Source: Shouchella clausii (lineage in GTDB: Bacteria; Bacillota; Bacilli; Bacillales; Bacillaceae_D). From it: a stretch of 64,000 bases of DNA. Positions 4,342 to 63,477 of this stretch are shown in pieces. Where the stretch lies: NCBI RefSeq assembly GCF_001598215.1, contig NZ_BCXJ01000006.1, positions 62,001 through 126,000 of the forward strand. The letters are read 5' to 3'. Made by a program: the position numbers and the translations under genes. The notes beneath the pieces are model-generated. The model was not told the DNA's origin, searched no databases, and saw nothing but the letters and a program-made list of their open reading frames with translations. Numbering within the stretch: the stretch's first letter is position 1; each line of letters opens with the position of its first letter.

Positions 4342-6339
4342 TTATTTCTTTAATAACGCTTTTGCCCGTGAAACGACATTCTCAACCGTAAAGCCGAACT
4401 CAGCAATAACCGCTTCACCTGCGCCAGAAGCGCCAAACGTGTCAATGCCAAGCACGTCTCCTTCGTCACCTACGTATTTTGCCCATCCAAACGAAGAGCC
4501 CATTTCAATCGCCAGGCGCGCTTTTACATCTCTCGGAATCACCGCGTCTTTGTATTCCTGTGGCTGCTCCTCAAAACGATCCCAAGACGGCATGCTGACT
4601 ACTGACGCATCGATCCCCTCGTCAGCAAGTGCAGCTTGTGCTTTCACAGCTAGCGGTACTTCTGAACCAGTTGCCAACAGCACGATTTCCGGTTTATCTT
4701 TTGGCTCCGATACAATGTATGCCCCTTTTTTGACCCCTTCATAAGCCTTTTTGTCCGTACCTTTTAACGTATCGACATTTTGACGGCTAAGAACGAGCGC
4801 CGTTGGGCGGCCTTTCGACTCTAGTGCGATTTTCCAAGCAGCAGCCGTTTCATTTCCGTCACCTGGACGAACAACGGACAAGCCAGGCATCGCCCGCAAT
4901 GCCGCAAGATGCTCTACCGGTTCATGGGTTGGACCGTCTTCGCCAACAGCGACGCTATCGTGAGTAAGCACATACGTGACTGGCACACCCATAAGCGCAG
5001 ATAAGCGAATGGCCGGACGTAGGTAGTCGGAGAAGACAAAAAAGGTTCCTCCAAATACTTTCAATCCGCCGTGAAGCGCCATTCCGTTTAAGGCGGCCCC
5101 CATCGCAAATTCGCGGACACCAAACCAAATATTGCGCCCGCCATAGTTGTCGCGACTAAAGTTGCTTTCCCCTTTTAGCGTTGTTTTGTTTGAGCCAGCA
5201 AGGTCAGCAGAGCCGCCAAACAATTCAGGCGTGTGGGCTGCAAGGGCATTGAGCGCTTCGCCTGAAGAAGCCCGCGTTGCAAGGCTTGTCCCATGCTCAT
5301 AGACAGGCAAAGCTTGGTCAAATCCTTCTGGCAACTCCCCTGAGAAAGCGCGCTCGTACTGCGCAGCCAATTCAGGATTCTCTGCCTTGTATGCAGCAAA
5401 CAAGTCGTTCCATTCTGCCTCTTTTGCTGCCCCATCTTCTTTAACCGCAGCAAAATAAGCTTTCACTTCCTCTGGAATGTAGAAGTCTTCCTCAAACGTC
5501 CACTTGTATGCTTCTTTTGTTAACTTTACTTCTTCAGCGCCAAGTGGAGATCCGTGCGAAGCCGATGAAGCTGCTTTGTTCGGTGAACCATAGCCAATGA
5601 CTGTTTTGACTTCAATTAGAGTCGGACGGTCGACACTTTTTGCTTCTTCAATCGCGTGGTGAATTTCTTCCATGTCCGTGCCATCTTCTACACGAACAAC
5701 ATGCCAGCCGTAAGCTTTGAAACGGTCTTCCACACTCTCAGAGAACGATTCATGCAAATCGCCGTCAAGTGAAATGTCATTTGAATCATAAAGGACAATT
5801 AAACGTTCAAGCTTCAAGTGACCAGCTAACGAAGCCGCTTCTTGTGAAACGCCTTCCATTAGGTCGCCATCGCCGCAAATCGCATACGTATAATGGTCAA
5901 CAATCGGATATTTATCAGTATTGTATGTAGCGGCTAAATGGCGCTCTGCCATTGCCATACCGACTGCCATGGCAATCCCTTGCCCAAGCGGCCCTGTCGT
6001 TGCTTCGACTCCGTCTGTATGGCCGTATTCAGGATGGCCTGGTGTACGGCTGCCAAGCTGGCGGAAAGACTTCAAGTCGTCAAGCGTCACGTCGTATCCA
6101 CTTAAATGGAGCAAACTATATAGCAGCATGGAACCATGGCCAGCAGAGAGTACGAAACGGTCGCGGTTTGACCACTTCGGGTTCGCAGGGTTGTGGTTCA
6201 TATGCTTTGTCCACAAATTTAATGCCATCGGCGCTGCGCCCATCGGCATCCCTGGATGGCCGGAATTCGCTTTTTCAATGCTGTCGATTGATAGCGTGCG
6301 GATTGTGTTAACAGCCAATTCTTCAACTTTTTTTGTCAA
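4342..6339 (-). CDS. tkt: Transketolase (665 aa)
   Basis: Thiamine-diphosphate enzyme of the non-oxidative pentose phosphate pathway, moving two-carbon units between sugar phosphates in the cytoplasm. Seen: N-terminal ThDP-binding part with GHGSM and GPLGQG, the cofactor motif GDGDLMEG ending in the N of DSND, the pyrimidine domain with [15 protein letters not shown], and a C-terminal domain (about 540-665). Full family length. The start is a TTG eight bases after AAAGGGTG; no in-frame ATG fits better. It belongs to the lexA-side cluster (yneB, ynzC, tkt, sirA, yneF) as in B. subtilis, with terminators on both sides suggesting its own transcript. Confidence 0.97.
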
Positions 6340-6390
6340 TGGATAACACCCTTTCTGCTGCCTTCTTTCCCTCTCATCATATACTTTCTG

Positions 6391-6423
6391 AAAAAAATGT
6401 ACAAGCCTGAGTAGACTTGTACA
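6391..6423 (-). terminator. Terminator after ynzC
   Basis: Stem TGTACAAG / CTTGTACA (8 bp, 10-base loop), followed on the minus strand by seven T residues. It begins two bases after the ynzC stop. Confidence 0.75.
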
Positions 6424-6424
6424 G

Positions 6425-6664
6425 TTAATGCAATCGTTTATGTTTTTGCGCTTTGCTGTCCTTTAATTTTTGTGGAGTAACGTCATTTCCTTTCGCGTCG
6501 ACGACTTTTACGGTATGGAGATGGTCCGTAAACGACGAACGGAAAGCCGACAAATATTCGTTGCGGAGTGCTTTTTGTTCCATTGCTTGTTTTTTTGTCA
6601 AGCCAACTGTTTTTGATAGCTTTGACAATTCATTGATGCGATCAAGTTTTTCTTTTGACAACAT
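6425..6664 (-). CDS. ynzC: UPF0291 protein YnzC (79 aa)
   Basis: Small hydrophilic protein of the UPF0291 family, recognised by N-terminal [13 protein letters not shown], the central [11 protein letters not shown] and the C-terminal block [10 protein letters not shown]. The family fold is a short helical hairpin; the function is not established. In B. subtilis it is the third gene of the SOS-controlled yneA-yneB-ynzC operon, and the order here is the same. I start at the ATG at 6664 (AGG, 8-base spacing). The GTG at 6673 and ATG at 6670 just upstream are alternatives. Confidence 0.92.
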
Positions 6665-6888
6665 CGTCATCACCTACCTTTTGTTCGCCCCCATCATAGC
6701 ATTCATCCAACACGAGAGCAAACAATCAGCTTACGGCAGACTAGACGAACAATATCCACGCCTTGCCCCGCTCATAGCCCTGGAAGCGTCGTTCCATGCA
6801 CAAGAAAACCGTCGCTCAATTCGCTTCTTCTCTCGCCCCGTGCCCCTGTCTAGCAACTGTTTATCATTCTTTGCTAACAACCACCAGC

Positions 6889-7605
<717 letters not shown>

Positions 7606-7760
7606 CTAACAGATAAGAACGAACTCAATCGCGCCAACGTTAATGCGGCATTGCCATCGTCCTCAACCTATTTATTTTATCAACAAAGGGCCTCCGATCT
7701 AAAGGCTTTCACTCCTCTGCTTAGCACAACCCTTCCAATTGTGTTTTTGCTGTTGTATTC

Positions 7761-7928
7761 TTAATTGTCAATTAAAAAAACGCGATCAATTGAAGTCGTT
7801 TCAACGATTTGCTCTGGCATGATTTGCTGTTCGTGTTTCTTGTTTTCGTTTTTTTCCTGCTCCCCAGGCCATACCAAGCTTGAGAAAATAAACAATACCG
7901 TCAAAATGCCGCCGCCTACTAGCCCCAT
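7761..7928 (-). CDS. Tiny membrane protein in the yneA position (55 aa)
   Basis: A 55-residue protein with an N-terminal hydrophobic segment (GLVGGGILTVLFIFSSLVW), then a charged extracytoplasmic tail. The ATG at 7928 has a strong GAGGA at 8-base spacing; an in-frame GTG at 7952 would add eight residues but has a poor site. It occupies the place of yneA, divergent from lexA and upstream of yneB. YneA proteins are SOS-induced cell division inhibitors with a membrane anchor and normally a LysM domain, which is absent here. A shortened YneA analogue is an inference from position and topology, not from sequence similarity. Confidence 0.6.
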   Translation of the reverse strand: MGLVGGGILTVLFIFSSLVWPGEQEKNENKKHEQQIMPEQIVETTSIDRVFLIDN

Positions 7929-7963
7929 ATCTTGTTTCCTCAATACGATCACCCGTTCCTAGA

Positions 7964-8034
7964 GAATGTTTGTTCTGCTAACAGAATACAAGGAACAACT
8001 GTTCGTGTCAACTGCTTTTTTAGAACTTATGTTT
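7964..8034. promoter_or_regulatory. LexA (SOS) box cluster between yneA-like gene and lexA
   Basis: Three sites resemble the Bacillus SOS box core GAAC-N4-GTTC: GAACAACTGTTC at 7993-8004 (perfect), GAACTTATGTTT at 8023-8034 (one mismatch) and GAATGTTTGTTC at 7964-7975 (one mismatch). They lie in the divergent promoter region, so LexA should repress both lexA itself and the yneA-like/yneB side. B. subtilis has the same multi-box arrangement here. Confidence 0.85.
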
Positions 8035-8096
8035 GCGTTCATACGTTCGATATGGTAAAGTTTGTTTAGAACAGTCATATGAAAGCAGGTGGGAAA

Positions 8097-8723
8097 ATGT
8101 CGAAATTGTCGAAGCGCCAAGAAGAAATTTTGGCGTACATAAAAGAGGAAGTAAAGAAAAAAGGGTACCCGCCGTCCGTCCGGGAAATTGGTGAAGCAGT
8201 TGGGCTCGCTTCAAGTTCCACTGTACATGGCCACTTAGCCAGACTAGAAAAAAAAGGCTATATTCGCCGCGACCCTACTAAACCGCGGGCGATTGAAGTC
8301 CTTTCTCTCGGATTTGATAATGATACATTTGTCAAAAAAGAGACAGCAAGCTTTATTCCGGTAATCGGAAAAGTTACCGCAGGTGTTCCAATTACTGCAG
8401 TTGAAAACATCGAAGATTACTTGCCCCTCCCAGACCATCTAGCCGCTTATGACAATACGTATGCGCTTGTCATTCAAGGGGAGAGCATGATTGAAGCGGG
8501 TATTTACGATGGAGACCAAGTAATCATACGGCAACAGCAAACAGCCGATAATGGCGATATTATTGTGGCCATGACAGAAGACAACGAAGCAACAGTAAAA
8601 CGGTTTTTCCGGGAAAAAGACTACATTCGTCTCCAACCAGAGAATTCTTCAATGGAGCCGATTATCCTTGAAAACTGCACGATACTCGGAAAAGTCATCG
8701 GAGTCTTCCGCACGATCCACTAA
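8097..8723 (+). CDS. lexA: SOS repressor LexA (208 aa)
   Basis: N-terminal winged helix (about 1-70; [20 protein letters not shown]) and a C-terminal S24 self-cleavage domain. Seen: the Ala-Gly cleavage site in VTAGVP, the catalytic serine in [13 protein letters not shown] and the lysine in ATVKRFF. LexA represses DNA-damage genes until RecA filaments stimulate its autocleavage. The start is the ATG at 8097 after AGGTGG; an upstream in-frame ATG at 8079 overlaps that site. Autoregulation is supported by SOS boxes immediately upstream. Targets visible in this window: the yneA-like/yneB side, recA, and possibly DNA polymerase IV. Confidence 0.97.
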
Positions 8724-9296
8724 CAGGCCAATAGCTCTTTCAGGTTGTTGACTAAGCTCCAACAATAAACAAGATTAAATGAAGACGCTTGTCCGACAAG
8801 AAGCAAGCCGCGGGAAGACGTAAACCGAACGTACTTTATAAAAAAGCTTTCGTGCTTGGAACGACTATTCCAATATGACATGGTAACAACACATATGGGA
8901 GTGTTTTTCTACAAACTAAAGACTCTTTCATCGATGATAAAAGAGTCTTTTTTGTGTAGCTGCCATCTTGCAAATGACCAAGCAGTTTCTTCGCTGGTAC
9001 ATACAATAAATAATAAGAAGGTGGTTCTACTTATGCCGTAACAAATCCTTTTAACAGCCAAGCTGCTGCCAAAGGAAAACAAGCTTAGTTGCTACGATAA
9101 CGGTAAATAGGCGATGCTGCTAGCATGACAGCTATGCTCCTACTAACGCCATAACATTCGCTGTTCCGAAAAGGACAAGAACGATCAAGCACTTGTCAGA
9201 GTTGACCATTAAATCAGCTGTAGAACCCCTCTCGCCCAACGTATTAGCCTGATTCCATTTGCTTTCTTGCGAGCAGAGCGCTCGCAGAAAGCTTTT
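8724..9296. other. Intergenic stretch after lexA without a convincing gene
   Basis: 573 bp. It holds the lexA terminator (8918-8953) and a second plus-oriented terminator-like hairpin (9261-9298). Between them all six frames are broken. Short hydrophobic minus-strand pieces (9050-9200) suggest a decayed membrane-protein gene, but no family is recognisable. Confidence 0.5.
8918..8953 (+). terminator. lexA terminator
   Basis: Perfect 11-bp stem AAAGACTCTTT / AAAGAGTCTTT with an 11-base loop, continuing into a T run. It lies about 195 bp after the lexA stop. Confidence 0.8.
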
Positions 9297-9298
9297 TT
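9261..9298 (+). terminator. Terminator-like hairpin, plus orientation
   Basis: Long GC-rich stem (GCTTTC-T-TGCGAGC / GCTCGCAGAAAGC) followed by six T on the plus strand, touching the stop codon of the convergent MFS gene. The T run suits plus-strand transcripts; on the minus strand no T run follows. Confidence 0.6.
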
Positions 9299-10520
9299 AG
9301 TCTGGTAGGCTGCTTTGTTCCTTTTGTTGGTGGCTAAGAGTCCATTTAAGCACAACTGCTGTCATAAGGAACAGCAAACCGGCCGAAATAAATACATAAG
9401 GAATGCCATAGCCGCTTGCAATCATTCCGCCGAGAACGGGCCCAAGCACATTTCCAAGAAAGCGAAAACTTTGGTTATAGCCAAGCACTTCCCCTTGCAT
9501 GGCAACAGGGCAAGCTTGGCGGATAAAAGCAGTTGTGCACGGTAGTAAGCCTCCTACGGCCATGCCGAACAGAAAACGCAAGACAATCAGTTGCCAAAGA
9601 GAACCGACAAATGCTTGTGGGATAAACAAAAGGCCTGATAATAGCAACAAAATCAACATGACTTTTTCATGGCCAATCCGATCACCGAATTGCCCCCAAG
9701 TACGAGTTAGCATTAAATTGCCAAGCCCAGTGATTGAGAAGGCAGCTCCTGCTAAAAAAGCCATATTTTCAGTGGTATGGGCAATTTGGTTGACATATAA
9801 GGCGAGCAAAGGTTGAACACTAAACAGAGCCATTTGTACAATTAAGGCAACAAACATCACCATTAAGAGCAGCGGGCTTTTTACGATACGGCCAAGTACT
9901 TCTTTAGAACGATACTTTCTTTTTCTTTCTCCTTTTTCTTCGTAAACGACTTCCTTCACGCCGAATAAAACGAGCACTGTTGCAATTAAAAGAATAGATG
10001 AAGTCAACAAAAATGTAAGTTCCATCCCCACTGTATCAGCGATCAATCCACCAAAAAGAGGTCCTAGCAAACCGCCGGAAACCGTCCCTGTTTGCAATGT
10101 TCCTAGCATTTCCCCTGCTGTTTTTTTGCTACTTTGGGCAGCAATCAACGCCATTGAGGCGGGAATGAACCCCGTGGCAAGGCCCATAAAAGCGCGCAAT
10201 ACAAACAATTGTTCTGCTGAATGTACGTATCCCATTAAAAAGACGGATAAGGCGATACCGAATCCTGTACCAAGCAATACTTTTTTTCGTCCAAACCGGT
10301 CGCCAACTTTTCCCCAAAGCGGAGCAACAAGAAAGGCGACTAGAAAAGCGACAGCAAACACATATCCTGCCCAGCGCTGGACTTCATCAACATTGTAGTG
10401 GCCTAAAGATTCAATGTATAGCGATAAAAAAGGAATGACCATTGTCATACTTGCCGATACAAAAAAGTTGGCAAACCACATGATGAGTAAATTTCGTTTT
10501 TCAGGTTGTATTCCAATCAC
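9297..10520 (-). CDS. MFS multidrug efflux transporter (407 aa)
   Basis: Twelve predicted membrane helices in the DHA1 major-facilitator pattern. Between helices 2 and 3 lies GKVGDRFGRKKVLL and in the second half the matching GQFGDRIGHEKVML. Motif C-like glycines follow in GGLLGPLFGGL. Such proteins are proton-driven drug exporters in the cytoplasmic membrane (MdtG/YfmO type), but the sequence does not give a substrate. The reading frame opens with GTG at 10520, where AAGG lies too close for a normal ribosome site, so the exact start is uncertain. No linked regulator gene is visible. Confidence 0.85.
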   Translation of the reverse strand: MIGIQPEKRNLLIMWFANFFVSASMTMVIPFLSLYIESLGHYNVDEVQRWAGYVFAVAFLVAFLVAPLWGKVGDRFGRKKVLLGTGFGIALSVFLMGYVHSAEQLFVLRAFMGLATGFIPASMALIAAQSSKKTAGEMLGTLQTGTVSGGLLGPLFGGLIADTVGMELTFLLTSSILLIATVLVLFGVKEVVYEEKGERKRKYRSKEVLGRIVKSPLLLMVMFVALIVQMALFSVQPLLALYVNQIAHTTENMAFLAGAAFSITGLGNLMLTRTWGQFGDRIGHEKVMLILLLLSGLLFIPQAFVGSLWQLIVLRFLFGMAVGGLLPCTTAFIRQACPVAMQGEVLGYNQSFRFLGNVLGPVLGGMIASGYGIPYVFISAGLLFLMTAVVLKWTLSHQQKEQSSLPD

Positions 10521-57050: not shown

Positions 57051-57080
57051 AAAATAAAGTGGCTTTCGCCACTTTATTTT
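57051..57080 (-). terminator. Hairpin at the rny stop codon
   Basis: 12-bp stem AAAATAAAGTGG / CCACTTTATTTT, 6-base loop, with a T run on the minus strand. The upstream arm includes the rny stop codon, so ribosomes could affect its folding. Confidence 0.75.
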
Positions 57081-58651
57081 GCGTATTCCACAGCACGTGT
57101 TTCGCGAATGACAGTCACTCGAATATGACCTGGGTAATCAAGCTCTTGCTCAATTTTTTTCGTTATGTCACGCGCTAGTTTATGGGCCAATGCATCGTCG
57201 ACGACATCTGGCCGAACCATGATCCGCACTTCACGCCCAGCTTGAATGGCAAACGTTTTTTCAACGCCATCAAACGACTCAGAAATCTCCTCGAGCTTTT
57301 CAAGGCGGCGTATATACGTTTCAAGTGTTTCCCGTCTTGCGCCGGGACGAGCAGCAGACAATGCATCAGCGGCAGCAACAAGCGTCGAAATAATCGACGT
57401 GGACTCGGTGTCGCCATGATGCGAAGCAATTGCATTAATGACAACAGGATGCTCCTTATATTTTGTCGCAAGCTCGACGCCAATTTCAACGTGGCTGCCT
57501 TCAACTTCATGGTCAATCGCCTTGCCGATATCATGCAAAAGGCCTGCACGTTTTGCTAGCTTCACGTCTTCACCAAGCTCTGCCGCCATAATCCCTGCTA
57601 GATGGGCTACTTCCATCGAATGCTTTAAGACATTCTGGCCATAGCTTGTACGGAAGCGCAGCCTGCCCAAAATTTTGATCAGATCAGGGTGGAGGCCGTG
57701 TACGCCAACTTCAAATGTCGTCTGCTCGCCGTACTCGCGAATCGTTTCGTCGACCTCACGCCGCGATTTATCCACCATTTCTTCAATCCGGGCAGGATGA
57801 ATCCGTCCGTCTTGGACAAGTTTCTCCAGAGCTGAACGGGCAATTTCGCGACGAATTGGATCAAATCCTGATAAAATGACCGCTTCCGGCGTATCGTCAA
57901 TAATTAAATCGATCCCCGTCAACGTTTCTAACGCGCGAATATTCCGCCCTTCACGGCCGATAATGCGCCCTTTCATTTCATCATTAGGCAAATTGACAAC
58001 AGAGACCGTCGTCTCGGCCACGTGGTCAGCTGAGCAACGCTGAATGGCAAGAGACAAAATTTCTTTCGAGCGTTTATCTGCCGTTTCCTTTGCCTCGGCT
58101 GTTTTTTCTTTAATCAAAAGAGCCGTTTCATGGGCAATTTCTTGTTCAACCTCTTGTCGGATGATCATTCGGGCTTCTTCCCGTGACAATCCGGATACTC
58201 GTTCCAGTTCCTGTTTTTGTTCAACAAGCAACTGGCTCATTTTACTTTCCATCTCTTCAACTTGTCGTTGTTTTTTGGCGAGAGATTCCTCCCGTTTTTC
58301 TAACGATTCTTCTTTTTTATCGAGAGTTTCGCTTTTGCGGTCGAGAATCTCTTCTTTTTGGACCAAACGATGCTCTTGTTTCTGAATCTCATTTCTTCGC
58401 TCACGAACCTCACGCTCGGCGTCACTACGAAGCTTATGGACTTCGTCTTTCACTTCCAAAATCGCTTCTTTTTTATTCGTTTCTGCTTCGCGCTTGGCGT
58501 CATCAATCATTTGCTTTGCTGCGTGTTCCGCACTTGATATTTTCGCTTCAGCGACTGATTTTCGAACAAGATATCCAACAACTGCAAAAACTACAGAGAA
58601 AGCAAGTACAATGAGGCAGAGAACCAAGAGACTCAACGTATAACTTGGCAT
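57074..58651 (-). CDS. rny: Ribonuclease Y (525 aa)
   Basis: Membrane-anchored endoribonuclease that starts mRNA decay. One N-terminal membrane helix (about 5-25), a long coiled coil (30-190, repeated [13 protein letters not shown] pattern), a KH domain ([15 protein letters not shown]), and an HD domain ([20 protein letters not shown]). Start at the ATG at 58651 after AGGGAGGTG. The RicA protein at 52794-53213 is part of a complex modulating this enzyme. Normally just downstream of recA; here a Mre11/Rad50-like operon is in between. Confidence 0.97.
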
Positions 58652-58790
58652 CGTTTCACCTCCCTTGCTATCCAATTGTTGGTTTTAACGGTGCATTCAC
58701 GTTTGCTAAATTACAGGTCAAACTTACATAAAATACAGCCTTTTTTACACACTGTATCATTTCTTATTCTACGCTCAGTCGCAGGCGATG

Positions 58791-59453
58791 TCAAGGTTTG
58801 GAAATCTCTTCTATTTGGCTAAGTCCATCGCGAATGGACACTGAAAAGGCTTTGTCGCCTGATTCGGCTAAGTGATGGTTATGGGTAATCATTATGATTT
58901 GCCTGCCAAACATCGTTGCTAGCGATTTTAAAAATTCGTATAAGTAATGGGTATACTCCCCTGACACATGCTTGCCTGGCTCATCAAGCAACAGCGGCCC
59001 AGCCTGGCGCGGCTGTGTCGTTTCCATCAAGGCAACGCGAAGCGCCAATGTCACAATATCCACGACACCGCCGCCTCTGGCGTCCTGGGGCTTCGTCTTC
59101 ACACGAATGCCTTCATAATCAGAAATGACGTACATGTCCGCAACTGCACGGTTGCCGTGCTCTTCTAATTCGATTTCAAATGAGACAAGCGGTCCAAATA
59201 CGTACTGGAGCGCATTTGTCACCAACGTCTCCATTTGCTGTTTGGCTTGCTCCCTGGCATATTCCGCTGATTGTTGCAAAAGAACACGCGCCTTTTCGTA
59301 CGTATCGACCGTGTCTTCCATATGAACAAGTTCCGCTTCAGCCGCTTCAAGTCGTTCTTGCAACATCCGCTTCTTTTCATCAAGGCGCATCCATTGGTCT
59401 CTCGCTTGCTGGAGGGCGTTTTCTAACTGCTCCAGCTCCCGTTCACTGCTCAC
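58791..59453 (-). CDS. Rad50/SbcC-like ATPase, C-terminal half (220 aa)
   Basis: Begins with a coiled coil (about 1-95), then the C-terminal ATPase lobe: signature-like block ARGGGVVDIVTLALRVAL (instead of LSGGE), Walker B GPLLLDEPGKHV and a switch histidine in IMITHNHHLAE. It lacks a P-loop, which lies in the separate protein at 59694-61130. The GTG at 59453 has AAGGAG ten bases upstream and overlaps the preceding small gene by 11 bases; the frame also opens at 59492. The GGGVVD signature recalls phage- and clostridial-type recombination ATPases. I infer a complex of the three proteins with the phosphoesterase at 61117-62109. Confidence 0.8.
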   Translation of the reverse strand: MSSERELEQLENALQQARDQWMRLDEKKRMLQERLEAAEAELVHMEDTVDTYEKARVLLQQSAEYAREQAKQQMETLVTNALQYVFGPLVSFEIELEEHGNRAVADMYVISDYEGIRVKTKPQDARGGGVVDIVTLALRVALMETTQPRQAGPLLLDEPGKHVSGEYTHYLYEFLKSLATMFGRQIIMITHNHHLAESGDKAFSVSIRDGLSQIEEISKP

Positions 59454-59697
59454 GGCTAACAAGCTCCTTTGGAATAAGGGACCATGCTTCATCCATTGAA
59501 CGTGTGATGCTGTCTTCTAAACGTTGAATCTCTTGTTCAAGCTCCTCTGGCTTCACGCCAAGTTCCTCTAATTCACCTAACAGCCGTTGCTTTTGATTCT
59601 CTAACTCTTCAAGCTTTGCTTCAGCCCGGTAGCGGACGTCTTTTGCCTTTTCAATAGCTTGTTTCATTTTTTCCAAATCTTGTTCGACACTGTTCAT
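59443..59697 (-). CDS. Small coiled-coil protein of the split Rad50 operon (84 aa)
   Basis: Almost entirely heptad-like coiled coil (VEQDLEKMKQAIEKAKD, AKLEELENQKQRLLGELEEL), in a different frame from both neighbours. The ATG overlaps the stop of the upstream ATPase half as ATGA, and the ribosome site GGAGGGG lies about ten bases before it. It sits exactly where the second coiled-coil arm of a full Rad50/SbcC chain would begin, just after the zinc hook. It may bridge the two ATPase halves. No known family was recognised. Confidence 0.72.
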   Translation of the reverse strand: MNSVEQDLEKMKQAIEKAKDVRYRAEAKLEELENQKQRLLGELEELGVKPEELEQEIQRLEDSITRSMDEAWSLIPKELVSREQ

Positions 59698-61130
59698 CCG
59701 TGATGCTCCCCTCCATGATTAATCGCTTGCCCACAAGTCGGGCAAATACCGAGCGCTTTTAGTGTTTTCGTATAACGATCATTCAACTGCTTTTCCTCAG
59801 CCAGCTTTTCTTTCACAAACGCTTGTCCGTCAGCAGCACGTTTTGTCACTTCTGCCAACTGCCTTTTATAATCCTTTAACTTCATTAAAAGCTTCGTCGT
59901 TTCAGTCGCCTCGTTTAACTGTTGGGCTGCTTGCTCTGTCCCTTTCAATTCTGCACTGGTGGCCTTCACTGATGTATATTCGTGCTTCGTTTGCTGCCAC
60001 TGGCGTGCAAGTTTTTCGAGCCGTTCTTTTTTGGCTTGCTCCTCTTCCATTCGTACAAGCTGCTTCCTGTCTAAACTTTGCACAAAAGCTGTTTGCGCCA
60101 TTGCCTTCGTCAATGTTTGCTCATTGTCCTTTATTGCCTGGCATTGTTGCTCAAGATTTGTCAGACGCACATAACGAGCCGCCTCGTTTCGTATGGCCTG
60201 GTGAAGGCTATAAGCGCTGTCTACTTGGGCTGTTTTTGAAAGCCATAAGGAGCAAGTACTACTGTCTTTTTCGAGCCGTGTCCATTGTTCAGCCAACTGA
60301 CTAAGGCGCTTGCTTTTAACGGCCAGGGCACGCAACTGTTCATAACGAATTTCCCAATCAGCAAGCTGGGCTACACTTGCTTTTTGTTTATTGGCCTCTG
60401 CTTTGGCTCTTGTCAGCTCTATGTAACGGGCATGCCATTGCTTCAGCTTCGCCAACCTCTCCTGGGCAGCTTTGGCTAGCCGCAATTTTTCAAAGCCTTT
60501 GTCCAGTTTCGCTTTCGCCGCCTCAAGCCCATCAAATGGTGCGAGCGCCGTTTTGGCTTCCTCTACTTCTGCTTGTTTCTGTTTGATTCGTTGGCTAAGT
60601 CCGTACACATCTTTAGAGGTATCGCGGATCGCCATATCTAAATAGTGGGCACCGCTCATGCGGCCAATTGTCTTGGCGCGCAGCGATCCTGGCGCTTCCA
60701 ACAAAAAGGGCCCATCTAACTGCTGGGCAATTTGCAAATGCCACTCATTATCGCCATCGATTCGGAACGGCCTCATGCCATGGGCTTGGATCACTTCTTC
60801 AGGCACTTGGCTGCCAAACCCTTCAAGCACCAAGTCTTGCCCTCCTGGCTCTTTTAAGATATAGCGATTTTTTGAGCTTGTCCGCTCGCGGATGATGAGA
60901 CGTCCTGAGTCCATTGTGATCGTCACACGGACAAAATCCGCACCGACACGGATGAAATCTGTTCCCCTCGGCTGGTTAAACAATGCCCAGCGAACTGCCC
61001 GCAAGACGGCAGTCTTGCCGCTGTCAGATTGGCCAACAATGACATTTAGACCTTTGTCAAATTGCAGCGTGCTATCTAAATGGGATTGGAAATTTTCAAG
61101 CCTGACGCTTACAATATTATTCAGTTTCAT
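59694..61130 (-). CDS. Rad50/SbcC-like ATPase, N-terminal half with zinc hook (478 aa)
   Basis: N-terminal ATPase lobe (about 1-160) with P-loop GQSDSGKTAVLRAVRWAL, followed by IIRERTSSKNRYI and a Q-loop-like segment, then a coiled coil (about 170-460), and a zinc-hook motif CPTCG nine residues from the end of a typical Rad50 arm. No C-terminal lobe: Walker B and signature are encoded separately at 58791-59453. ATG at 61130, overlapping the phosphoesterase gene by 14 bases. Expected role: DNA end processing in double-strand break repair, next to recA. Family resemblance to phage-type recombination ATPases is from memory and should be tested. Confidence 0.82.
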   Translation of the reverse strand: MKLNNIVSVRLENFQSHLDSTLQFDKGLNVIVGQSDSGKTAVLRAVRWALFNQPRGTDFIRVGADFVRVTITMDSGRLIIRERTSSKNRYILKEPGGQDLVLEGFGSQVPEEVIQAHGMRPFRIDGDNEWHLQIAQQLDGPFLLEAPGSLRAKTIGRMSGAHYLDMAIRDTSKDVYGLSQRIKQKQAEVEEAKTALAPFDGLEAAKAKLDKGFEKLRLAKAAQERLAKLKQWHARYIELTRAKAEANKQKASVAQLADWEIRYEQLRALAVKSKRLSQLAEQWTRLEKDSSTCSLWLSKTAQVDSAYSLHQAIRNEAARYVRLTNLEQQCQAIKDNEQTLTKAMAQTAFVQSLDRKQLVRMEEEQAKKERLEKLARQWQQTKHEYTSVKATSAELKGTEQAAQQLNEATETTKLLMKLKDYKRQLAEVTKRAADGQAFVKEKLAEEKQLNDRYTKTLKALGICPTCGQAINHGGEHHG

Positions 61131-62109
61131 CACGCTCCCAGCGCTCTTCCACGACTGTCATCCGCCTTAGCGCTTCCTGTTTTACTTTGTCTTCCACACC
61201 TTGCAAAGAGGCAAGCTCGCGAATGATTTCACCCATTTGCAGCGTTTGGAAATCGGCCTGCTCTCTCACTTGCTGGACAAAGGCGTGAAGTTTTTCTTCC
61301 TGGTGGCTTGCTTTTTCGACGTAAGCCCTGTCCAACACGTCACTGCCTTTTTGAGCGACAGTCAGCGTCTCTTCCCGTAGCGTTATGCCTTCTTTTGTCA
61401 CGGTACCAATAATGACTTTAGGCAGCCGTTCTACTTCTGTCCAATGGTTGTTAATCCTCGCTATCGCACCTGGATTGCAGATAAATTTGCCGTTTTGCTC
61501 TTTAATGCCGAAGCCTGTATGGTAATGCCCTGTCAAAATAACATCGGCGCTCGTTCCCCAAATGTGGTCAATCAGCGTATGAGGAATGCCATCAGGCAGT
61601 GCTTTTTCGACGAGCATGCTATGGACAAGGTGGATCATCGCATCTGCTTCTGTTTCATTGATCGGGTAATAGTCTAGCTTAGGGTCACGCTGGTCGAGCT
61701 CGTAATGGTATGGCTGGCCAGACACTTGCACACGGACGCCAGCTTTTTCGATCAAAATCGGCTTGCCAGGATGGACGAGCTTCATAATGCCAAACGCATC
61801 AAGGAGACCAAGCATCGTCCGTGACACCGTCTCTGGGTTATGACCAAATGTATCATGGTTCCCGGAAATTGTGTATATGGGCGCTGGCGCTTCCCGGAAA
61901 ATTTGTGCGAATTGGCCAACTGTGCTTGGCGATAAGTCAGGCCTGTCAAAAACATCACCGCCGTGAAGAAGCACATCCACTTGTTCACGGTCGGCAATTG
62001 CCATTATTTCTGTAAGCTTTTGTTTCATTGTTTCTGGAAACGCATCTAAACGGTTTTTAGGCGCTGTCCCCCGAATATGGGTATCGGTAAAATATAAAAA
62101 CGTGACCAT
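61117..62109 (-). CDS. Mre11/SbcD-like metallophosphoesterase (330 aa)
   Basis: Calcineurin-like nuclease fold with all metal motifs: FTDTHIRG, LLHGGDVFDRP, ISGNHDTFG, an HxH-type LTGHYHTGFG. A C-terminal helical region (about 265-330) would contact the ATPase. Mre11/SbcD enzymes are 3'-5' exonucleases and hairpin endonucleases working with Rad50/SbcC. First gene of a four-gene overlapping operon ending before rny. The ribosome site is weak (AAGGAG about 13 bases from the ATG). recA lies 198 bp upstream on the same strand. Confidence 0.87.
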   Translation of the reverse strand: MVTFLYFTDTHIRGTAPKNRLDAFPETMKQKLTEIMAIADREQVDVLLHGGDVFDRPDLSPSTVGQFAQIFREAPAPIYTISGNHDTFGHNPETVSRTMLGLLDAFGIMKLVHPGKPILIEKAGVRVQVSGQPYHYELDQRDPKLDYYPINETEADAMIHLVHSMLVEKALPDGIPHTLIDHIWGTSADVILTGHYHTGFGIKEQNGKFICNPGAIARINNHWTEVERLPKVIIGTVTKEGITLREETLTVAQKGSDVLDRAYVEKASHQEEKLHAFVQQVREQADFQTLQMGEIIRELASLQGVEDKVKQEALRRMTVVEERWERDETE

Positions 62110-62307: not shown

Positions 62308-63360
62308 TTATTTTAAATCTAAAGGCACATCTTCAAAAGCTTGTTCTTCAGCTGCCTCTTCCAGCTTCGCTTCCCCGTCGAGCCCGTGGTGGTCACGAAT
62401 CAAACGCTCAATTTCAGCGGTAATTTCCGGGTTTTCTTTCAAGAATTGTTTTGAATTTTCGCGGCCTTGCCCGAGGCGGTCGCCTTTGTAAGAATACCAA
62501 GCACCGCTTTTTTCGACAATATCGAGTTCCGACGCAATGTCAAGCATCGAACCTTCCCTGGAAATGCCTTCTCCGTACATAATGTCGACTTCCGCTAAAC
62601 GGAAAGGCGGAGCTACTTTATTTTTGACGACTTTGATTTTGGTACGGTTGCCGACAATCTCATTCCCTTGCTTCAACGCCTCGGCACGGCGCACTTCCAA
62701 GCGGACGGACGAGTAAAATTTAAGGGCGCGCCCCCCTGGCGTTGTTTCTGGATTGCCGAACATAACACCGACTTTTTCACGGATTTGGTTGATGAAAATC
62801 GCAATCGTTTTCGACTTATTGATCGCTCCTGATAATTTCCGAAGCGCTTGTGACATTAAGCGTGCTTGCAAGCCAACATGCGAGTCGCCCATTTCCCCTT
62901 CAATTTCCGCTTTTGGCACGAGCGCAGCTACACTATCAATGACAATAATATCAAGAGCACCACTGCGGACGAGCGCTTCAGCAATTTCAAGTGCCTGTTC
63001 GCCTGTATCAGGTTGGGACAGCAGGAGCTCATCGATATTAACGCCTAGTTTGCTCGCATAGACAGGATCAAGGGCATGCTCAGCATCTATAAAAGCTGCT
63101 TGGCCACCATTGCGCTGCACTTCAGCAATTGCATGGAGGGCAACGGTCGTTTTACCGGAAGATTCCGGGCCATATACTTCAATGACTCTTCCTTTTGGAT
63201 AGCCGCCTACACCAAGGGCAATATCAAGGGCAAGGGCGCCGCTCGAGACCGTCGATACGCGCTGTTCAGCCTGTTCACCTAGCTTCATGACAGAGCCTTT
63301 GCCAAATTGTTTTTCAATATGGCGTAAAGCCATGTCAAGCGCTTGTTTTCTATCACTCAT
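62308..63360 (-). CDS. recA: Recombinase RecA (350 aa)
   Basis: Walker [15 protein letters not shown], Walker [15 protein letters not shown], the DNA-binding loop [16 protein letters not shown] and an acidic C-terminus mark full-length RecA. It drives strand exchange and triggers LexA cleavage. The start is the ATG at 63360 (AAGGAG, 8-base spacing). A LexA box, CGAACATTTATTCG, lies at 63478-63491, 118 bp upstream. The usual cinA gene upstream is absent from this window. A hairpin at 62215-62247 (AGGAAAGA / TCTTTCCT) may be the terminator but has no T run. Confidence 0.98.
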
Positions 63361-63477
63361 GTTCATCTCTCCTTGTCAATTCGCTCATTTCTATCGTTAT
63401 CCATGTAAGGGACAATGTTGTAAGTCTTCGCATGAGTCTATCATAACGCGTTTTGCTTCGTTTGCCAATAGTTTTTG

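Follow-up and report, generated by a model that had tools for sequence, protein, structure and literature searches.

How might a Rad50-type ATPase work when its two ATP-binding lobes are made as separate proteins? The question is posed by a 64,000-nucleotide stretch of the Shouchella clausii genome (RefSeq assembly GCF_001598215.1, contig NZ_BCXJ01000006.1, positions 62,001 to 126,000; hereafter the window), in which four closely spaced minus-strand genes lie between two neighbours that we take, from their sequence, to be recA and rny. In order, the four encode MPE, an Mre11-like metallophosphoesterase; NL, lobe I of the ATPase with its arm and zinc hook; SC, a protein of 84 residues; and CL, lobe II of the ATPase. 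We consider it probable that this quartet is a divergent Mre11-Rad50-type machine for DNA-end processing, whose ATP-binding cassette (ABC) ATPase is assembled from separate lobes and which replaces SbcCD. This reading builds on profile matches to solved Rad50 and Mre11 structures, on natural fusions of the components, on the recurrence of the complete quartet in two sets of loci and on the distribution of SbcD.

The four proteins

MPE carries the Mre11-like phosphodiesterase motif set. D9, D52, N84, H85, H163, H195 and H197 are invariant in an alignment of 34 rows and H11 is nearly so; as in Mre11, these residues presumably bind the metals. The family profile matches the Mre11 structure 1ii7 (E 5.4e-10), and the score of MPE against the SbcD model TIGR00619 (35.9 bits) lies below the cut-off of 77.65.

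NL contains the Walker A motif GQSDSGKT and, 11 residues before its end, the hook motif CPTCG, so that the first ATPase gene indeed holds both the P-loop and the zinc hook, as a reading made from the sequence alone had proposed. Its profile matches Rad50 3qku (E 2.6e-13), and columns 411-480 of the profile align with 1l8d and 6zff, two structures of the Rad50 zinc hook (E about 5e-6); C464, P465 and C467 are invariant over 63 rows. Against the curated NCBIfam models of Rad50, the score was 68.8 of 700 bits and did not reach the cut-off. An AlphaFold2 model (predicted local distance difference test, pLDDT, 83; predicted template modelling score, pTM, 0.38) places helices 162-200, 203-254, 257-300 and 304-347 after lobe I, followed by a long helix (357-461) that precedes the hook; among PDB structures, the model fits best to the Mre11-Rad50 complex of P. 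furiosus (Foldseek E 7.7e-7). A CPxC hook is present at the arm end in 167 of 178 loci, followed by 5-44 residues in 165 of them and by 86 and 138 in the other two. The 11 loci without it comprise four arm-less fusions, six broken or cut frames and one viral locus (L288) with another CxxC.

The arm of NL is not the plain long heptad coiled coil of the SbcC controls. Measured against shuffles, the self-similarity of 149 arms from related species is dominated by lag 47 (z 82.7), with lag 7 also present (z 32), whereas in 28 control arms from 14 SbcC proteins lag 7 comes out on top (z 16.7) and lag 47 gives z -1.9; four samples of 28 NL arms yield z 22-24 at lag 47. The distance from P-loop to hook (167 loci) clusters at about 383, 429 and 477 residues, with one case at 572 and five at 247-331. 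These patterns suggest that the arm is a row of helical repeats of about 47 residues.

In CL, the place of the ABC signature reads DARGGGVVD and is accompanied by the Walker B motif LLLDEP and by ITHN. The CL profile matches Rad50 lobe II (3qkr_B, E 6e-10), and CL matches phrog_15167 with an E value of 5.4e-62. NL and CL together provide the Walker A and Walker B lobes of a Rad50-type ABC ATPase. The signature mostly takes the form [DE][AS]RGGG[VI]VD, with RGGG in at least 160 of 182 CL sequences, counted over the 25 commonest forms; the SbcC controls have LSGGE or MSGGE throughout (14/14), and CL lacks the LSGGE form.

SC is conserved as a protein in its own right. The ratio of nonsynonymous to synonymous substitution rates (dN/dS) against the near relative L105 is low, at 0.063 (CL 0.013, NL 0.113), and against eight more distant relatives (L106-L113), where dS is saturated, pN/pS is 0.14-0.36. 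The sequence-only reading had called the piece an 84-residue coiled coil: the separate helical protein stands, the single straight coil does not, as the AlphaFold2 model (pLDDT 86, pTM 0.44) predicts two helices (2-45 and 50-74) that are broken at a conserved ELGV.PE turn. Family members end in LIP.EL, and only 14 of 171 have any cysteine in the conserved part. The fold search for SC returned nothing useful, its sole PDB match having an E value of 7.7.

Relation to SbcCD and a proposed assembly

What kind of machine would these proteins form? With SbcCD and Mre11-Rad50 they share a metallophosphoesterase and the elements of the ABC ATPase, namely the lobes bearing Walker A and Walker B and an arm with a CxxC hook. 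They differ in that the ATPase, a single long chain in most cells, consists of three proteins, in the additional SC, in the RGGG signature and in the lag-47 arm, and the curated NCBIfam cut-offs for SbcD (TIGR00619) and for Rad50 are not reached. Because the window lacks a single polypeptide holding both lobes, and because the LSGGE signature, the plain heptad arm and the NCBIfam cut-offs fail as well, we have not filed the quartet as SbcCD; judged by sequence, it appears to be a split variant related to Mre11-Rad50 and not a member of SbcCD. We found no description of a split Rad50 or SbcC in the open-licence PMC literature, a scope that leaves out subscription papers and preprints.

The four proteins may form one complex. 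NL and CL would dock into one ABC head; two such heads would close upon ATP binding and keep the nuclease positioned on a DNA end, while the NL arms would be paired through their C-terminal CPxC hooks. The P. furiosus Rad50 lobes of the solved structures were reportedly expressed as separate halves. In PDB entries 1f2t, 1ii8, 1us8 and 3qkr, each of the two Rad50 lobes is a chain of its own, so lobes that dock in trans have a precedent. The place of SC is probably on the arm or the hook, since SC accompanies most forms that bear an arm and none was found in the arm-less fusions described below; the exception to this pairing is formed by four arm-bearing viral loci in which SC was not found. In genomes without SbcCD, the quartet would take over the end-cleaning that SbcCD performs.

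This substitute function is supported by the distribution of SbcD and by the recA neighbourhood. For the former, 40 genomes with the system and 40 without were picked by hand across the order, class and phylum samples, excluding one genome with a partial, weak match (G817), and an SbcD match over the TIGR00619 cut-off served as the marker because PF13558 (the SbcC Walker B domain) is ambiguous. SbcD was present in 3 of the 40 genomes with the system (G126, G489, G505) as compared to 26 of the 40 without it (Fisher's test gives p 9e-8 with genomes as units and 7e-4 with families, of which 3/24 versus 19/32 were counted by hand). The genome of the window itself has no SbcD over the cut-off and no PF13558 match, and its best TIGR00618 match reaches 20.4 bits.

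Several points weigh against this interpretation. Being related, the tested genomes are not independent of one another, and they were chosen by hand; 14 of the 40 genomes without the system also have no SbcD over the cut-off, and G126 has both. The cut-off itself may miss divergent SbcD proteins. For PF13558, 16 of the 40 system-bearing genomes and 30 of the 40 others had a match over the cut-off. Among the 16 matches, three lie 3-4 kb from the SbcD genes of G126, G489 and G505, one is a 261-residue frame, and the remaining 12, from genomes with no SbcD over the cut-off, are strong; 11 of these occupy frames of 1108-1420 residues and the last a short cut frame. Some system-bearing genomes may thus well possess another SbcC-like ATPase. 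The exchange of the signature serine for arginine in most CL sequences could alter ATP sensing. Lastly, the AlphaFold2 models are of single chains, and the proteins are known here from sequence.

Frames of about 1100-1440 residues with a strong SbcC_Walker_B match recur (G776, G796, G417, G755 and others), standing apart from SbcD or in genomes without SbcD over the cut-off.

Age and spread of the division

The division of the ATPase is old and common to many Bacillota. We sampled 41 genomes of the family, 299 of the order, 398 of the class and 398 of the phylum. An uninterrupted gene in close relatives, which the sequence-only reading had named as the observation that would point to a recent mutation or a sequencing error, was looked for and is absent from the family sample: all 41 genomes encode lobe II in a frame of its own, which measures 221-291 residues between stops. 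CL matches were found in 20 of the 299 order-level genomes (two of them weak and lying in 1024-residue frames, the other 18 strong), in 50/398 of the class and in 66/398 of the phylum, three of the last (G730, G1038, G977) with a 686-702 residue frame; in most of these matches CL is separate.

Two sets of loci were compared. The first (L105-L184) consists of 80 loci hand-picked from the matches at these four levels; the second (L185-L264) holds the best 80 of 278 stretches encoding relatives, retrieved from one genome each of 84,980 species. The sets share species (L180, for instance, is L185), and as the family hidden Markov models were built from L105-L184 plus the window, leaving the viral loci out, counts on the first set are partly circular. 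All four genes are present in 75/80 loci of the first set, in the order MPE-NL-SC-CL in 70, with recA in 44, rny in 43 and both in 43; in the second, all four are present in 75/80, in that order in 74, with recA no more than 3.5 kb upstream in 50, rny no more than 1.5 kb downstream in 51 and both in 48. Some loci end at a contig edge, which can affect these synteny counts. The earlier expectation of a stable four-gene set placed between recA and rny is thereby supported, and both neighbours flank the quartet in all ten family loci whose surroundings were fetched (L105-L114). Bacilli and Clostridia alike show the recA-quartet-rny order, and the relatives include Halalkalibacterium halodurans, Alkalihalophilus pseudofirmus, Thermoactinomycetaceae, Tepidanaerobacter and Carboxydothermus. 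Quartets with neither recA nor rny close by occur as well, at class level (L134-L141) and in Clostridia (L190-L193, L208, L218, L248 and others). In a tree of CL, 34 rows (Bacillaceae, Thermoactinomycetaceae and one unclassified metagenome-assembled genome, MAG) form one group (support 99/98), which argues for mostly vertical descent within Bacilli.

Natural fusions link the components to one another. Among 160 bacterial loci, only four have their best NL and CL matches in a shared frame, and L180 and L185, both counted in the four, are one and the same contig; three of the 160 (L183, L246, L264) hold no NL. In these fusions, which come from a single distant clade of the phylum (f133), MPE, lobe I and lobe II form one chain of 684-700 residues without arm, hook or SC (L179 4938-7040, L181 4947-7034, L185 6594-8648). 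With almost no arm and no hook, such proteins would represent a minimal Mre11-Rad50 head in one chain. A fragment alignment of the lobes (9-16% identity) suggested misplaced fragments and was not used. MPE is fused to NL, with CL separate, in L141 (937 residues), and four of the 22 viral loci show the same arrangement in 707-772 residues.

Phage relatives and RNase Y

Could the quartet have been domesticated from a recombination module of phages, or serve in defence against them, instead of being a housekeeping replacement of SbcCD? We regard this as unlikely, although the same split occurs in phages. NL and CL are never in one frame in the 22 viral loci, and SC was found in 18 of them (all but L282, L286, L287 and L288); because these four lack it, SC is not universal in arm-bearing forms. 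The three ATPase pieces of Bacillus phage vB_BboS-125 (L031) are likewise separate, being represented as gp32, gp34 and gp35 by PHROG 16465, 18563 and 15167, with the annotations exonuclease, unknown function and ATPase; a gene with an AP2 domain (6053-6625) lies between NL and SC, and an MPE-like frame that is unannotated in the record follows at 7893-8873. AP2-domain genes are often found in homing elements. Unlike the chromosomal set, most viral loci have MPE after CL or fused to NL; insertions of genes between the pieces also occur.

The phylogeny of CL can be read on both sides. As drawn with a midpoint root, the tree nests the chromosomal group, itself supported at only 87/81, among viral lineages, so the quartet could have a phage origin; in the same tree, however, 79 of 80 non-fused chromosomal rows fall into one group with a single viral row (L275), while L215 lies among the viral rows. 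Concerning defence, PADLOC models match (LmuB for NL with E 2.4e-13, mad3, PtuA, GajA and others), but these matches scatter over many systems, on which ground we rejected membership in a defence system. Defence islands are patchy in distribution; the quartet, in contrast, is present in every family genome sampled, and beside recA and rny wherever family loci were fetched. Phage ancestry and a housekeeping role are, in any case, compatible.

The L215 copy itself (6181-9489, a Clostridia MAG) has MPE after CL and is probably part of a prophage.

A viral counterpart may help to explain an earlier observation. In L278, the MPE-NL frame has 769 residues, and SC and CL follow downstream as separate genes. 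From this length and from the genome size, the locus may be phage 0305phi8-36; a megablast search against the phage collection gave no match. The best viral fold match of NL is A7KV18 (769 residues), the Mre11/Rad50 fusion of Bacillus phage 0305phi8-36, for which Yoshida, Claverie and Ogata (2011, PMC3175470) did not observe one P-loop segment. Such fusion proteins combine nuclease and ATPase in one chain and so resemble the MPE-NL fusions. If L278 is that phage, downstream SC and CL genes of its type would supply the missing half of A7KV18.

The other neighbour suggests a second alternative, namely that the quartet has RNase Y as its partner and RNA as its target, instead of RecA and DNA. It draws on the position of rny, downstream in 51 of the 80 loci of the species scan, and on two Clostridia loci (L246, L264) where CL alone stays beside rny. 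We nevertheless deem it very improbable: the closest solved relatives are Mre11-Rad50 proteins, and the quartet occurs with no rny nearby in many Clostridia loci and in phages.

Separate genes or joined products

The window itself speaks for three separate ATPase genes. The overlaps and ribosome sites named in the sequence-only reading hold: the SC start lies within the ATGA that closes NL and is preceded by GGAGGGG, and CL starts at a GTG that follows AAAGGAG and overlaps the SC stop by 11 bases. That reading had also noted that one insertion or deletion does not explain the split, and the count agrees: NL and CL use a common frame, but seven stops (codons 479, 489, 510, 518, 521, 526 and 538) separate them before CL begins at codon 560, so a single indel cannot join them.

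Programmed frameshifting could in principle join the pieces and make some full-length Rad50, and the tightness of many junctions would suit it (the median gap between the stop of NL and the consensus start of SC is 13 nt, and that between the stop of SC and the consensus start of CL is 2 nt). Over 170 loci, however, each junction shows every one of the three frame relations (NL/SC 72, 49 and 49; SC/CL 86, 56 and 28), and gaps reach hundreds of bases, some of the largest stemming from broken NL frames or contig ends. Moreover, in two draft Clostridia MAGs, CL stands alone between rny and a frame that we take from its sequence to be folD-like (L246 7842-8525, L264 7854-8513), while a different contig carries MPE, NL and SC side by side (L297 5189-7888 with L246; L298 4046-6866 with L264); no second CL was found near them in the 11.5 and 12 kb fetched, the rest of both MAGs lying outside the search. 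On conservation, frame use and this separate encoding we rejected frameshifting, whose chance of being correct we put as slight in the extreme. Given all frame relations, the large gaps, the inserted phage gene and CL on another contig, no fused product is needed.

A recent frameshift, the decay of a gene or an error in sequencing, as the cause of the split, has next to no chance of being right and is ruled out by conservation across the phylum, since despite the frame shared by NL and CL and the breakage of NL itself in three loci (L211, L223, L272), the seven stops, the individual ribosome sites, the low dN/dS of SC and CL, the separate CL in all family genomes and most other matches, and the same split in vB_BboS-125, where a further gene intervenes, all oppose it.

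Implications of a proposed divided head

If the preferred reading, a divided Mre11-Rad50-type machine in place of SbcCD, is true, many Bacillota carry a Mre11-Rad50-type complex, often beside recA, and surveys seeking only SbcC and SbcD would score these bacteria as poor in such complexes. The system would also offer a natural case in which lobes, hook-bearing arm and nuclease can be mixed separately, so that the assembly of the head, the function of the hook and the length of the arm, varied by about 47 residues at a time, could be addressed one by one. More tentatively, and less likely than not, the quartet might represent a separate branch of Mre11-Rad50-like machines that serves as the main SbcCD substitute in a large part of Bacillota. 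Its lobe II would then be dissociable (and even encoded apart in two Clostridia), such that building of the head on DNA ends could be regulated, and its arms would grow in whole units of the 47-residue helical repeat, with a dedicated small subunit completing them.

Gene boundaries and neighbours

Coordinates of the quartet and its neighbours in the window
Feature	Coordinates	Strand	Description	Basis
MPE	61117..62109	-	Mre11/SbcD-like metallophosphoesterase, 330 residues	Pfam PF00149, E 4.7e-13
NL	59694..61130	-	ATPase lobe I with Walker A, helical arm, zinc-hook CPTCG	profile versus Rad50 3qku
SC	59443..59697	-	84-residue protein, predicted two helices, family of its own, no CxxC	phrog_18563, E 1.6e-7
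CL	58791..59453	-	short N-terminal helical segment and ATPase lobe II	profile versus Rad50 3qkr_B
recA	62308..63366	-	upstream neighbour	open reading frame; neighbour also in relatives
rny (RNase Y)	57074..58675	-	downstream neighbour	open reading frame; neighbour also in relatives

The MPE gene overlaps NL by 14 bases. NL starts at an ATG, with a GTG situated three bases upstream, and a 233-residue reading of CL from 59492 is merely the longest frame. At the three loci with a broken NL, one in a MAG (L211), one in a draft genome (L223) and one on a viral contig (L272), the NL frame falls into two parts; L273, a close viral relative, has it whole.

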